NCBI GenBank assembly: GCA_003697085.1
Contig: RFFU01000002.1
Coordinates: forward strand, 1-64,000
Length of the DNA stretch: 64,000 bases
Direction: 5' to 3'
DNA from: Candidatus Hydrogenedentota bacterium
Lineage (GTDB): Bacteria; UBA8481; J006
Below the pieces are notes generated by a model. It saw nothing but the letters and a program-made list of their open reading frames with translations, was not told where the DNA came from and searched no databases. The position numbers and the translations under genes are program-made. Shown here one piece after another: positions 48,199-53,287 of the stretch. The first letter of the stretch is position 1, and every line of letters begins with the position of its first letter.

Positions 48199-48855
48199 CG
48201 GTGAAGAGAACCCCCGATTCGGCCTCTCGGCGGACGGACACCCGCGGCAAACGAAAACGAAGTGTGAAACATAGGAAAGGCTCCTTTCGAAAGAGGTCGC
48301 GGTTGCTCGGAAAAATCGAGCGTGTTCATTCTTCAAAAAACCCTCTTCCAAAACAAGAAAAAAGGTGTCATTCTTACAATTTGACAGTTTCGCGAACGGC
48401 TGATTTTCAAAAGACGGTGACGAATTTCGGCCGCGCCATATTGCACATCGCGTGACGTTTGCGCTTCCGTGCCCGCCCTTCGGTTTCGCAGAATACGGGG
48501 TAGAACCTTCGTTGGAGACGTTCCTATGTGGGAGGTCGGGAACGGGGAGGAGAACGGTTCCTAAGCCGTACCTGCTTTGGTGTCGGCGAAATATCGTCTC
48601 ACCGAAACGGTTGGTTGTGCTTTCGGGAAATTTCCGATCTGTAGCCTTACAACTTCAATTTCTCGCGGCGTCGGACTGTCGAACGTAAGAAGAAAATGGT
48701 TTGGATTCCGGCAAACTCTGATTTCGTTTGGCACAAAAAGTTCGGTTCTTGTTGTCTCCCTCTTGCCTGTTACGACACGGGTTCATAAAGTTTCTGTTGA
48801 CGATGGATGTCGTGTTGGATCGCGATCGATGATCGAAGATAAACGATGGAGAAAA
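48199..48855. other. 657-base spacer between divergent genes, no gene recognised
   Basis: Divergent promoters for aguB (minus) and the arrestin-like pair (plus) must lie here. Short open frames exist on the plus strand (48201-48455, 48452-48688 and the early part of a long frame from 48577) but none has a ribosome binding site or a recognisable protein pattern. No RNA gene or repeat was recognised. Confidence 0.45.
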
Positions 48856-49590
48856 ATGACGCCTTTGAGAGACGGGACGATGAGAATGTATGGGAGTAGC
48901 GCTGCGAGTCCGCGGCGAACAGAGGAGGGATTCGTTTTCGAATATGGTTCCCTCAGCCCCGTCTTTTTTTACGCAAATATGTTGATGAGTGTCCTGGCCC
49001 CTCTCCTGTTCCTTTCGGTTGGGTATTTCGAGGAGAGTGTAATAGCGCTTGTTTTCGGCGCCATTGCGCTTATTTGCAGTCCGTTCTTGTTTCGAAATGC
49101 ACTGGCCGGTTTACGCCTCGGTTCGGCCCGCCTCGTCCTTTCGAAGTGGCCTCTTCGAATGGGAGAGGAGATCGAGGTGGTGTTCTCGCGAGAACCGTGG
49201 TCTCCCGCGCGAATCCAACGACTCGAAGGGGAACTGATTATGGAGGAAAACGCAACATTCGAAATGAAGACTTCGATTCATGCCCTCATTCTGTTCCTGA
49301 AAAGAGAGGGGACACTTTTTGGAAGAAGTTCGGGTACAAGATACTGCGTCGTTACCCATAAGGCGAAGTCGTTTTCCTTGCCCTCCGTCGATCTTCTCTC
49401 CGGTTCTGACGCGGTGGCGCGTTGGAAGGTCGTTATACCGAGAGAAGGGCCCAGCACCTTTCAAGGCCGTTTCAATTCTCTCCAGTGGAGGCTTAAAGTG
49501 AAGACCGTCGCTCAGGGAGTTCAGAATGCTTATTCTTTCTCTCATTTTCCGCTCGTCGTTCTTCCGGAAGTTGTCCGGAGGGCGTCGTGA
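48856..49590 (+). CDS. Membrane protein with two TM helices and an arrestin-like domain
   Basis: This 244-residue protein has two close membrane helices (residues about 32-52 and 59-77) followed by a beta-rich domain. That domain has features of the arrestin-like/Spo0M fold: MGEEIEVVFSR near its start and WKVVIPREGPSTFQGRFNSLQWRLKV near its end. The match is by pattern only. GGAGAAAA directly precedes the ATG at 48856. It is coupled to a second arrestin-like gene by GTGA overlap at 49587-49590. No function is assigned. Confidence 0.6.
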   Translation: MTPLRDGTMRMYGSSAASPRRTEEGFVFEYGSLSPVFFYANMLMSVLAPLLFLSVGYFEESVIALVFGAIALICSPFLFRNALAGLRLGSARLVLSKWPLRMGEEIEVVFSREPWSPARIQRLEGELIMEENATFEMKTSIHALILFLKREGTLFGRSSGTRYCVVTHKAKSFSLPSVDLLSGSDAVARWKVVIPREGPSTFQGRFNSLQWRLKVKTVAQGVQNAYSFSHFPLVVLPEVVRRAS

Positions 49591-49967
49591 TCGGAATCCT
49601 TCTCGACGCGCCCGAAGTCGAGGTGGGTGGAAAGGTCGCGGGAAGGGTCGTCGGTACACCCGAAAAGAAATGGCAAGCCGTTGCGATCGAGGTCGGGTGG
49701 CGGACGGAAGGACGCGGAACCCCTGAACAAGTGACGGTAGCGACCGTAAGGAGAACACCGGAAGAAGATGGGGCATTCATTGCCGGGGCTTCCATTCCCG
49801 TAGACGTTCCTTTCGAGGTGGAGATTCCGTCCGAAGGGCCGATTTCATACGACGGCCAGATTGTACGGTTCATCTGGTGTGTTTCAGCAACGCTCGAAAT
49901 CCCATGGGCGCGGGATGAGAAGAAGGAGGTCGTCTTTCGGGTCGTACCGCGGTTCATCGAAATATGA
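49587..49967 (+). CDS. Small arrestin-like beta-sandwich protein
   Basis: This 126-residue protein looks like one arrestin-type beta-sandwich: EVEVGGKVAGRVVGTPEKKW for the first strands, then PVDVPFEVEIPSEGPISYDG and VRFIWCVSATLEIPWARDEK, ending FRVVPRFIEI. The sequence pattern (IP.EGP.SYDG...V.W.V.A.L) parallels the end of the preceding membrane protein. GTG at 49587 overlaps that gene's stop. The pair probably act together; partner and function unknown. The double-glycine peptide follows 108 bases downstream. Confidence 0.6.
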   Translation: MIGILLDAPEVEVGGKVAGRVVGTPEKKWQAVAIEVGWRTEGRGTPEQVTVATVRRTPEEDGAFIAGASIPVDVPFEVEIPSEGPISYDGQIVRFIWCVSATLEIPWARDEKKEVVFRVVPRFIEI

Positions 49968-50058
49968 CCTTTGGTGGTCTATTTTAATTTAAATGTGAAT
50001 AACTTCACCGTGCTCTGTCGTTAAATTGCTTTCATAATAAATCAAGATGGGAAAACGG

Positions 50059-50070
50059 AAGGAGGTGATC
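50059..50070 (+). promoter_or_regulatory. Extended ribosome binding site of the double-glycine peptide
   Basis: AAGGAGGTGATC is a 12-base match to the complement of the usual bacterial 16S rRNA 3' end, ending 5 bases before the ATG at 50076 (GGAGG to ATG spacing 10). The bases before it (49975-50045) are A/T-rich and contain CATAAT at 50033, but no -35 was matched. Confidence 0.8.
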
Positions 50071-50075
50071 GTAAG

Positions 50076-50228
50076 ATGGAAGATGAGAGGGACGACAAGG
50101 AATTGAACGAAGAAGAATTGGAGAAAACCTCGGGCGGGTCGTTTAACGCCTATGCGTACCACCGGTTGAAGGAAAGGATCAAATTTGATCCGAAGATCTC
50201 GAGGGATTCCGAGGAGCCGAAGAAGTAA
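50076..50228 (+). CDS. Putative RiPP/bacteriocin-like precursor peptide with double-glycine leader
   Basis: This 50-residue peptide has an acidic leader ending LNEEELEKTSGG (residues 10-21), which fits the double-glycine leader rule (hydrophobic residue at -12, Glu at -8, Leu at -7, Gly at -2 and -1). Cleavage after Gly21 would release a 29-residue, basic, Tyr- and Lys-rich core beginning SFNAYAYHRLK, with no Cys. The ribosome binding site is near perfect, indicating strong expression. No C39 peptidase, ABC exporter or modification enzyme lies in the window. It lies between the arrestin-like pair and convergent topoisomerase VI. The core does not resemble a known bacteriocin, so the leader alone supports the call. 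Confidence 0.65.
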   Translation: MEDERDDKELNEEELEKTSGGSFNAYAYHRLKERIKFDPKISRDSEEPKK

Positions 50229-50327: not shown

Positions 50328-51461
50328 CTACGGCAGGAAGGCTTTGGGGTTCTTCAGCTTCCGGGGAAGGTACTCTTCCATCACATAATTGAGTCCCCAT
50401 TTTGCCAGCGCTTGTTGTTCAGCGCGCACTCCCATCTTCAGCAGCAGTTCGAGGGCGCGTTGCCAGGGTTTGTGGTGCAGGAAGAACGGATCGTTCTTCA
50501 AGGCGTCTTTCGCCCGTTTGATGTCCACGTCTTTTAGAGGATGGGTCGGAAGTTTGTAGTCGACGATGTCCTGGGGTGTAACTCCGAGAAAACGAGCGGC
50601 GGGAACGGAAAAGAAGCGGCTGATATGTGCCGCGTTGCCGGAGCCGACCTTGAGGGAACGGTAGATGTTGGCGATTCCGTAGGGGTCGCAATCGACGAAG
50701 GCATAGACGGGGATCTTCTTTTCTTCGGAGAGCCGACGGAGAAACCGCCGGCAGGCGCGGGTCGGAACCCCGCCCATACTCACGAGGATGCAGTTCGCCC
50801 GGCGCCAAAATTTGTGAGCGGCCAGCCTCTGAAACATCCCGCCCGTTTCGATGACGAGAATGAACTTCGCTTTCGTTTCAAATTCCAGATGCTCGACAGA
50901 GGAAGGAACGGAATAGGCCCCCGACCCGAAAGCCGTGCAGTCGATACGAATCTTCTTTCCCGTCTCCCAATCCCGATCGATCACGGTGAGCCGTCCGGCG
51001 ATGTCGCCGCCTTTCTCCTCGGGATAAAACCGGAGATGTTCGCGATTCAAGCCACTGGTCGAAAAGAGCGCCTCGATATCGTCCATCACAGCATCCGATT
51101 CTTCCTGCGCGTCGAACCGCGCCTCCTCCCAGTTCTTCGACTGGTAATAAGCATCTCGCTTCGTCGCGAAATCGTTGGTTTCCACCAACTCCTTCGAAAG
51201 GGCCATCATCCGCAGTGTCTGGGCGAAGGTCCGGACCGTTCCAACGGTGAGGGTTCGTGATTTTCGAGCCCGCCCGATCTCAAAATACCCCTTCCGCACG
51301 TCATAACGAACGTTCGAAAGGGAACGGATGGGGAAGGAGAGTTCCGGTTTCTTCAAGCGGCGGATTCGATTGTAAACATCCCGGGCTTGTTCCGTAATTC
51401 GGTCGATCACCTTCTTGTCGATCGCCGTTTGAGCGGCGGTGCGTCTTCCCCGTCGTGCCAT
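50328..51461 (-). CDS. top6A: DNA topoisomerase VI subunit A (Spo11-like)
   Basis: This 377-residue protein matches Top6A: the 5Y-CAP region with the catalytic Tyr in KRDAYYQSKNWEEARFD, and a Toprim domain with the acidic residues in ILVIETGGMFQRL and VYAFVDCDPYGIANIYRSL. The enzyme makes 4-base-overhang double-strand breaks in an A2B2 complex. ATG at 51461 shares its A with the topoisomerase VI B stop (TGATG) and has GAGG upstream. Topoisomerase VI is mainly archaeal and plant; bacterial copies are patchy. Confidence 0.94.
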   Translation of the reverse strand: MARRGRRTAAQTAIDKKVIDRITEQARDVYNRIRRLKKPELSFPIRSLSNVRYDVRKGYFEIGRARKSRTLTVGTVRTFAQTLRMMALSKELVETNDFATKRDAYYQSKNWEEARFDAQEESDAVMDDIEALFSTSGLNREHLRFYPEEKGGDIAGRLTVIDRDWETGKKIRIDCTAFGSGAYSVPSSVEHLEFETKAKFILVIETGGMFQRLAAHKFWRRANCILVSMGGVPTRACRRFLRRLSEEKKIPVYAFVDCDPYGIANIYRSLKVGSGNAAHISRFFSVPAARFLGVTPQDIVDYKLPTHPLKDVDIKRAKDALKNDPFFLHHKPWQRALELLLKMGVRAEQQALAKWGLNYVMEEYLPRKLKNPKAFLP

Positions 51462-53287
51462 CAGAATTTCCTCGACTTCTCAAGTATCGTCGTCAAGTTC
51501 CGCGTTGCTTTTTTCGTGCTTGCCTCGGAGAGGGATAGGATTTGTTGAAGCGCCAGGGCGACTTGCGGGATATAGGTCTGGATGTACGATCGTTTCTTTT
51601 CCGCATCGGCGATCCGTGCTTTCTTTCGGATGTGGATTCCGAGACGCCGGCCGCATTCTTGAAGGGCCAATCGAATTTCCTTGAGGATCTCGGGATAGGA
51701 GGCGATCGCTTCCTTCGACTCGCTCGTGAACGGAACCCATGCGCTGGCGATGTGCACCGCGATGACGAGCGGCCCTTGCGGCAATGCGGTGCGAGGATGC
51801 GTCAGACCGTAGGCGCGCCAATTCAATCCGACGACCGCTTTCGTGATCGCGCAACCGGCTTGTTGATATTGCAGCGGAACGCGGTTGGCAAAACGGACGA
51901 GGTCGGCGGGGGAATCGGCGTCCCGTCCCTCCACCCCCCAGGCCAGGGCTGCTTCGACAAGAAACGGATTGCCGCGGTACACGGCGGGATTTCGAGAGAC
52001 GGCCGTCGAGAACTCGGCCTTCCCGGCCACGCGTTTCAGCCCGGCCAGCATCAACTCTTCCCCGATCGGCGAGAGACAATTCGTCGGAGGGCGCGGAATC
52101 TTTGTCTTGCGGACGGCCCGGTACAAGGCATCGGCTTCCTGGCGCGCAATCCGGGAGGGGCGGGCCGTGGGAGGCAACTTGGCATTCGCGCAGATCGTTT
52201 CGGCGATCGTCGGGCCCACCCGCGCGAACTCCGTGGTCAGAAACCCCTTCAGATTGCGGGCCCGCGTCGCCTTCAACATCTGCATCAAAAGCCCCAATTC
52301 GATTCCGTGCGGGTGCGGTTTGATCTCCGCCGCTTCAATCGGCAGAATCTCCGTGGCGCGCTTCCGATACATTTCCTGACCGTCCGGCGCCTTGTAGTGC
52401 AATGTGACATGAGGATTCGCGATCAGTACCTGCTCGAGGTATTCCTCGATCGATCGCCGCCCGCGCTGGAAAATCCCCTCCAGATGAATCTCGACACGTG
52501 TCCCGTGTTCCCGGTTCCATTCGACGACTTCGTCCTTGACGACTTCAGGCGCGTTGCGCTTCGTGTCGATGTGGATCTCGAAGTAGTGCGCCGGACGCTT
52601 GGGACCGGTTCGGGAAATGATGCGGCACGACGTGCCGGTGGTGAGTTGGCCGTACATCGCCGCGGCTGAGATACCGATGCCTTGCTGGCCGCGGGACTGC
52701 TTCAAGCGGTGGAACTTCGATCCGTAAAGAAGTTTTCCGAAAATCCTCGGAATCTGGCTTTTTACGATTCCCGGACCGTTGTCCTCTATGACCACCTTGA
52801 ATCGGTCTTGTCCCTCCGGTGTGATCTCCACGAAAACCTCCGGAAGGATTCCCCCTTCTTCGCAAGCGTCGAGCGCGTTGTCCACCGCCTCTTTGACCGT
52901 CGTCAGTAGCGCTTTCTTCGGATTATCGAAACCGAGGAGATGGCGGTTCTTCGTGAAGAACTCGGCCACCGAAATCTCGCGCTGTCGCGTTGCCATCTCG
53001 GCGGCGGATCGCCCGCGCTTTGCCGCAGAGGTTGCCGGAACTTCATTTTTTGGGGATTGTCCTTGCGTGGCGGCTGGGGCCACCGGGGTTCGAGATTCGG
53101 TTTCCGCCCGCCGGTTCTTTATTCCTGTCGAAGGCTCTTGCCTCGAACTCTTTTTCACCTTCCTGGTCTGTTTCGCCTCCCCGGAGGATTTTTTTGCATT
53201 GGAACGGGGAGAACCCGTGGAACGCCTTGCCGTTCGCTTCTTCTTTCCGTTTTTTGGTTTGCTGGCCTTTTTCCCTCGACTCACCAC
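51461..53287 (-). CDS. top6B: DNA topoisomerase VI subunit B (GHKL ATPase) with long basic N-terminus
   Basis: This 608-residue protein has a Lys/Arg/Ser-rich N-terminal tail of about 100 residues, then the GHKL ATPase: [35 protein letters not shown] and [17 protein letters not shown], a transducer domain and a C-terminal helical region. It drives strand passage by ATP binding. The GTG at 53287 has GAGGATAAAC upstream. The basic tail is longer than in archaeal homologs and may bind DNA nonspecifically, which is inference. It is coupled to Top6A by one shared base. Confidence 0.93.

Follow-up and report, generated by a model that had tools for sequence, protein, structure and literature searches.

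A small, unannotated open reading frame on the forward strand of the window (the whole 64-kb stretch of DNA analysed here) encodes a peptide, MEDERDDKELNEEELEKTSGG|SFNAYAYHRLKERIKFDPKISRDSEEPKK, which reads as a double-glycine leader followed by a short core. The locus raises the question of what kind of peptide this would be, and which partner could process and export it. A preliminary description had pointed out that no modification or export gene is adjacent, leaving two options: a partner elsewhere, or a new kind of system. Of these, the first has held up, as a strong candidate partner, an NHLM operon, is encoded on another contig, C106; the second has not, the HlyD, the C39-ABC and the second ABC protein of that operon all scoring above curated cut-offs. 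We conclude that the product is probably an orphan double-glycine precursor peptide, exported through a C39 peptidase-containing transporter and probably not modified.

The gene itself occupies positions 50076-50228, with an ATG start, 50 codons and a TAA stop. The 50-residue peptide first proposed is borne out by this reading frame, its perfect Shine-Dalgarno sequence and its codon score. The feature had been delimited as 50059-50228; the end of that interval is correct, but 50059 marks the start of the Shine-Dalgarno sequence, the ATG being located at 50076.

Leader, core and candidate exporter

The predicted leader, MEDERDDKELNEEELEKTSGG, is 21 residues long (50076-50138, forward strand) and terminates in KELNEEELEKTSGG, after which 29 residues follow. 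C39 peptidases recognise the pattern L(-12)-x3-E(-8)-L(-7), with Val at position -4, ahead of Gly-Gly (PMC6363468). The window leader has Leu at -12, Glu at -8, Leu at -7 and the two glycines, with Thr at -4 in place of the preferred Val or Ile; this Thr is also its one deviation from the older consensus (R/K)ELx3E(I/L)x2(I/V)xG(G/A), quoted in PMC3140520. LahT150 can cleave a very diverse set of leaders and requires no more than their final 13 residues (PMC6363468). Two bacteriocin models match the peptide in its leader only and below their cut-offs: the bacteriocin leader model TIGR01847 with 14.7 bits (15.0 in the genome search; cut-off 15.7) and TIGR03949 with 16.2 bits (cut-off 21.5).

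In the genome_contigs scan a single relative was found, in the Clostridiales MAG RUG11935, and the match spans the leader only. The leaders of the tandem genes concerned, such as ELNEEELEQISGG and ELNEEELEEVSGG, match that of the window peptide, their ELNEEELE.[IV]SGG being nearly identical to it, while the part after the Gly-Gly, which from its sequence appears to be a LysM-like domain, is unrelated to the window core. These Clostridiales genes form a tandem array (L002:3158-5847) of near-identical sequences in which double-glycine leaders are fused to the LysM-like domains. An independent leader HMM, built from four Clostridiales leaders alone, finds the window peptide with an E-value of 3.6e-5 in a six-frame translation of this genome (314,000 residues). 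Together with KELNEEELEKTSGG and the residues at -12, -8 and -7, this result confirms the double-glycine leader of the preliminary description. A conserved core lacking a conserved Gly-Gly leader, named there as one observation that would speak against such a peptide, did not turn up; the single external match is confined to the leader.

The predicted core, SFNAYAYHRLKERIKFDPKISRDSEEPKK (50139-50225, forward strand), has 29 residues and is basic (pI 9.6), with three Ser and no Cys or Thr. Its length, basic character and lack of Cys agree with the first account of it, which overstated the core as Tyr-rich, since only 2 of the 29 residues are Tyr. No relatives of the core were found in genome_contigs, viral contigs, plasmids, the PDB or 97 other genomes, the contig scans requiring an exact eight-residue match that distant relatives would escape. 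Weak matches in relatives (L004-L008, E-values of 0.03-0.4) are not credible as core homologues; the best of them, L004, sits in an ordinary dehydrogenase-type operon, and L005-L008 were judged on E-value alone. No Pfam family matched the 50-residue peptide, and its predicted structure is of low confidence (pLDDT 61), with helices at residues 12-15 and 25-34 only.

A search of the host genome (3.2 Mb in 145 contigs, 94.6% complete) for C39-peptidase ABC transporters, as had been proposed, identified one C39 peptidase gene, at C106:34385. It is the ABC1 gene of a complete NHLM (NHLP/Nif11-type) export operon (C106, 32437-39438). The operon encodes the NHLM HlyD protein (TIGR03794, 348 bits; cut-off 156), ABC1 with its C39 domain (TIGR03796, 1027 bits; cut-off 853), ABC2 (TIGR03797, 876 bits; cut-off 709) and a TIGR03896-like cyclic-nucleotide protein that falls short of its cut-off (132 bits; cut-off 161). 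The C39 domain of ABC1 aligns to LahT150 (PDB 6mpz, 6.7e-45) and keeps the catalytic motifs Q-x5-C, NHF and NDPA. The peptide gene and the exporter operon are on different contigs. NHLM ABC2 exceeds its cut-off in one of 98 sampled genomes, and that same genome alone has the peptide, a co-occurrence that fits pairing of the two and, with one positive genome, is consistent with it rather than proof of it. We infer that the C106 exporter is the cognate partner of the window peptide.

In the mechanism that we propose, the acidic leader would bind, as a helix, in the groove of the C39 peptidase domain of ABC1, which would cleave the precursor behind Gly21; ABC1/ABC2 and the HlyD-like adaptor would then carry the basic core of 29 residues out of the cell. 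In leaving unmodified, the core would resemble class II bacteriocins or small secreted proteins of the EbfG type known from Synechococcus. Export without modification is the most likely course because the core contains neither Cys nor Thr and no modifying enzyme is encoded nearby. Translation, pairing with the C106 exporter, cleavage, secretion and any activity are all predicted steps.

Other double-glycine precursors and modifying enzymes

The genome contains at least four further double-glycine precursors, at scattered sites. One is a Nif11/mersacidin-type lanthipeptide precursor (C120:13325-13714; L036:1501-1890) with a Nif11 domain and a Cys-containing core, scoring 32.5 bits with the Nif11 model TIGR03798 (cut-off 32.3) and 61.8 with the mersacidin/lichenicidin model TIGR03898 (cut-off 23.5). 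A LanM gene (L040:12242-15511; TIGR03897, 811 bits) lies about 2.5 kb from it. The two probably constitute a class II lanthipeptide cluster, which has no C39 transporter of its own, the only one in the genome being that on C106.

The TIGR01847 search identified two more, P2 and P3, and reading downstream of P3 revealed P4. P2 is a lone 60-residue double-glycine peptide, MSQEQQQENKDAKTLSAENLKKVQGG|SKIDDQKQTRRFRSRTQQTRNISSDTARYGDILG, encoded on the reverse strand (C23:3385-3567; L059), its neighbours apparently being purU and recA; it has the leader LSAENLKKVQGG and, as best partial match, the leader of the EntF induction factor (E-value 0.015, below cut-off). P3 (C106:25173-25319; L038:18674-18820) has 48 residues and an unrelated core of 12 residues, RLFGNSIAGRVL. 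It is in tandem with P4 (C106:25390-26076; L061:1391-2077), a 228-residue protein in which a double-glycine leader precedes a weak Hint/intein-like domain, and the tandem is situated some 6 kb upstream of the C106 exporter operon. The leaders of P3 and P4 are conserved (24 of 36 residues identical), as are the 45 bases upstream (39 of 45 identical), and the sequences after the Gly-Gly are unrelated. P4 matches Hint_2 with an E-value of 0.0023 (below cut-off), intein_Nterm with 0.033, and hedgehog and DnaE intein entries of the PDB with 0.06-0.14; its structure model (pLDDT 40) is unusable. Such a fusion of leader and Hint-like domain in the vicinity of an NHLM exporter may merit a separate look.

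Over the last 12 residues, the window leader agrees at six or seven positions with each of four other leaders of the genome, the ends being unrelated. With a 15-residue profile of these four leaders the window peptide ranks first among non-members, at a non-significant E-value of 1.3, so common descent of the leaders of this genome is not claimed as proven. The paralogous leaders that the preliminary description suggested looking for were found to the extent that further double-glycine leaders with unrelated ends are present, but the profile made from them does not establish the relationship. No convincing promoter motif common to the double-glycine genes was detected.

Peptide-modifying enzymes, for which a search had likewise been suggested, are represented by the LanM on C120 and by three SPASM proteins over cut-off, on contigs C39, C58 and C62, all unlinked to the peptide gene. 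The window peptide could in principle be a RiPP precursor that one of them, LanM or a radical SAM/SPASM enzyme, modifies before export, and the distance is no obstacle, since Haft et al. noted precursors distant from both modification and export genes (PMC2887384). We nevertheless regard such a modification as improbable. A lanthipeptide needs Cys plus Ser or Thr in its core; with Cys and Thr absent and just three Ser available for dehydration, lanthionines are excluded and heterocycles are unlikely. The SPASM genes have no convincing double-glycine gene beside them in the stretches of about 3 kb that were scanned. The window leader is also short and differs in type from the Nif11 leader of the LanM-linked precursor: the peptide matches no Nif11 or nitrile-hydratase-like leader domain, the one N11P match in the genome is on C120, and no NHLP match is over cut-off.

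Leader specificity, coding potential and genomic neighbourhood

The Gly-Gly could also be coincidental, in a small acidic/basic protein that stays inside the cell and has nothing to do with export. The Thr at -4, the lack of homologues and the E-value obtained with the genome's own leaders fit such a protein, which the motif and length of the leader, the strong Shine-Dalgarno sequence, the leader-only match to double-glycine proteins elsewhere and the intact-looking C39 exporter in the genome make quite improbable. The combination of a strong Shine-Dalgarno sequence and a leader of the form [LM]xxxE[LM]xx[VILMTA]xG[GA] occurs in two genes in 323 kb of the genome and never in 20 Markov resamples of that stretch. 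A strict DNA pattern for EEL-E...SGG, derived from the window peptide itself, has one match in 3.2 Mb and none in the control. Looser patterns lose this discrimination: a looser leader pattern gave 10 matches against 15 in the control, with none in short open reading frames, and the leader expression with a looser Shine-Dalgarno sequence gave 17 against 19. Because the latter did no better than the control, only the top-scoring double-glycine genes are claimed here.

Translation of the 50-codon frame is likely from its sequence features. The Shine-Dalgarno sequence, AAGGAGGTGATC (50059-50070, forward strand), ends 5 nt before the ATG and complements the usual 16S rRNA tail in full. It is the sole copy in the window on either strand, and its first nine bases likewise have no second copy on either strand. 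The codon score of the frame is 0.45, against a mean of -0.05 (standard deviation 0.16) for 118 shadow open reading frames of similar size, none of which reaches it, and it exceeds 97% of 50-codon pieces taken from long open reading frames. The Glu/Lys-rich composition contributes to this score; the synonymous-codon part by itself is weak (0.09), and the antisense frame reaches 0.36. An untranslated chance reading frame, for which this weak synonymous signal and the length of only 50 codons might be cited, is very unlikely given the codon score above all shadow frames, the leader motif and the position of the window's only perfect Shine-Dalgarno sequence.

Upstream, on the same strand, two overlapping genes (48577-49967) are present, one encoding an Arrestin_N (E-value 3.2e-7)/Spo0M-like protein and the other a protein that probably has membrane helices and that matches no Pfam family. 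A 108-bp AT-rich gap separates this pair from the peptide gene; the part preceding the Shine-Dalgarno sequence (49968-50058) may contain a promoter of its own, although no sigma-70 consensus was found on its forward strand. Downstream, no small same-strand gene, and hence no adjacent immunity-like gene, precedes the convergent gene for topoisomerase VI A, which ends at 50328. The A and B subunits of this archaeal-type enzyme (50328-53287) occur here in a genome that also has bacterial NHLM and LanM genes. A genome of the same order, G001, retains both subunits, the A subunit being 79% identical; the stretch beside them is unrelated and there is no peptide in it. That the peptide and the arrestin-like pair, offered in the preliminary description as the only nearby candidate partner, form a new secretion or signalling module is suggested by adjacency on the same strand but is very unlikely, as nothing found links them across the gap, they share no family, the pair is of Arrestin_N/Spo0M type only, the compared stretch of G001 is unrelated and peptide-free, and an ordinary exporter exists in the genome.

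Relation to known export systems

An exported, unmodified peptide would fit alongside several described systems. The host genome has the same three-gene exporter (TIGR03794/03796/03797) as the NHLM/NHLP-type export system (Haft et al. 2010, PMC2887384), and as in the NHLP/N11P systems the precursor is far from the exporter and its leader ends in Gly-Gly with a TIGR01847-like motif (PMC2887384). Unlike NHLP/N11P precursors, the window peptide has a leader of 21 residues that includes neither a Nif11 nor a nitrile-hydratase domain, and its core lacks both Cys and Thr. With class II bacteriocins (TIGR01847/TIGR03949) it has in common a short acidic leader of the form E-L-x3-E-L-x4-GG and a small basic core; it differs from them in having no adjacent immunity gene, no core similarity and scores below both HMM cut-offs.

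Unannotated double-glycine precursors that belong to neither the Nif11 nor the NHLP family are common: of 290 cyanobacterial precursors, 150 make up an "other" class, and annotation had missed 46 of the full set (PMC3140520). These "other" precursors, and EbfG1-4 with PteB, are likewise small, often unannotated Gly-Gly peptides of no known RiPP family that are exported by C39 transporters (PMC3140520, PMC4997328). EbfG1-4 are a co-transcribed group, the last gene of which is numbered next to pteB, whereas the window gene stands alone (PMC4997328). Because there is no adjacent immunity gene, and because the double-glycine peptides of the EbfG/PteB system of Synechococcus can serve biofilm formation (PMC4997328), a bacteriocin and a signal or matrix peptide are about equally open as roles. 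A more specific proposal, in which the dispersed double-glycine substrates of this genome (orphan unmodified peptides, the lanthipeptide and the leader-Hint-like fusion) all leave through the single NHLM exporter and the window peptide, once secreted, acts as a signal or as part of a matrix and not as a bacteriocin, is speculative and on balance unlikely.

Most likely, the window peptide is of a known kind, a secreted bacteriocin-like or signal peptide, with an orphan core. A double-glycine peptide need not represent a new system when no exporter adjoins it; here a candidate partner is encoded elsewhere in the genome. The pairing is amenable to test, as cleavage of the precursor by the exporter's C39 domain can be assayed directly. 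The peptide adds an unannotated, Cys-free candidate for secretion from a lineage whose order is represented by just one other genome in the sample.
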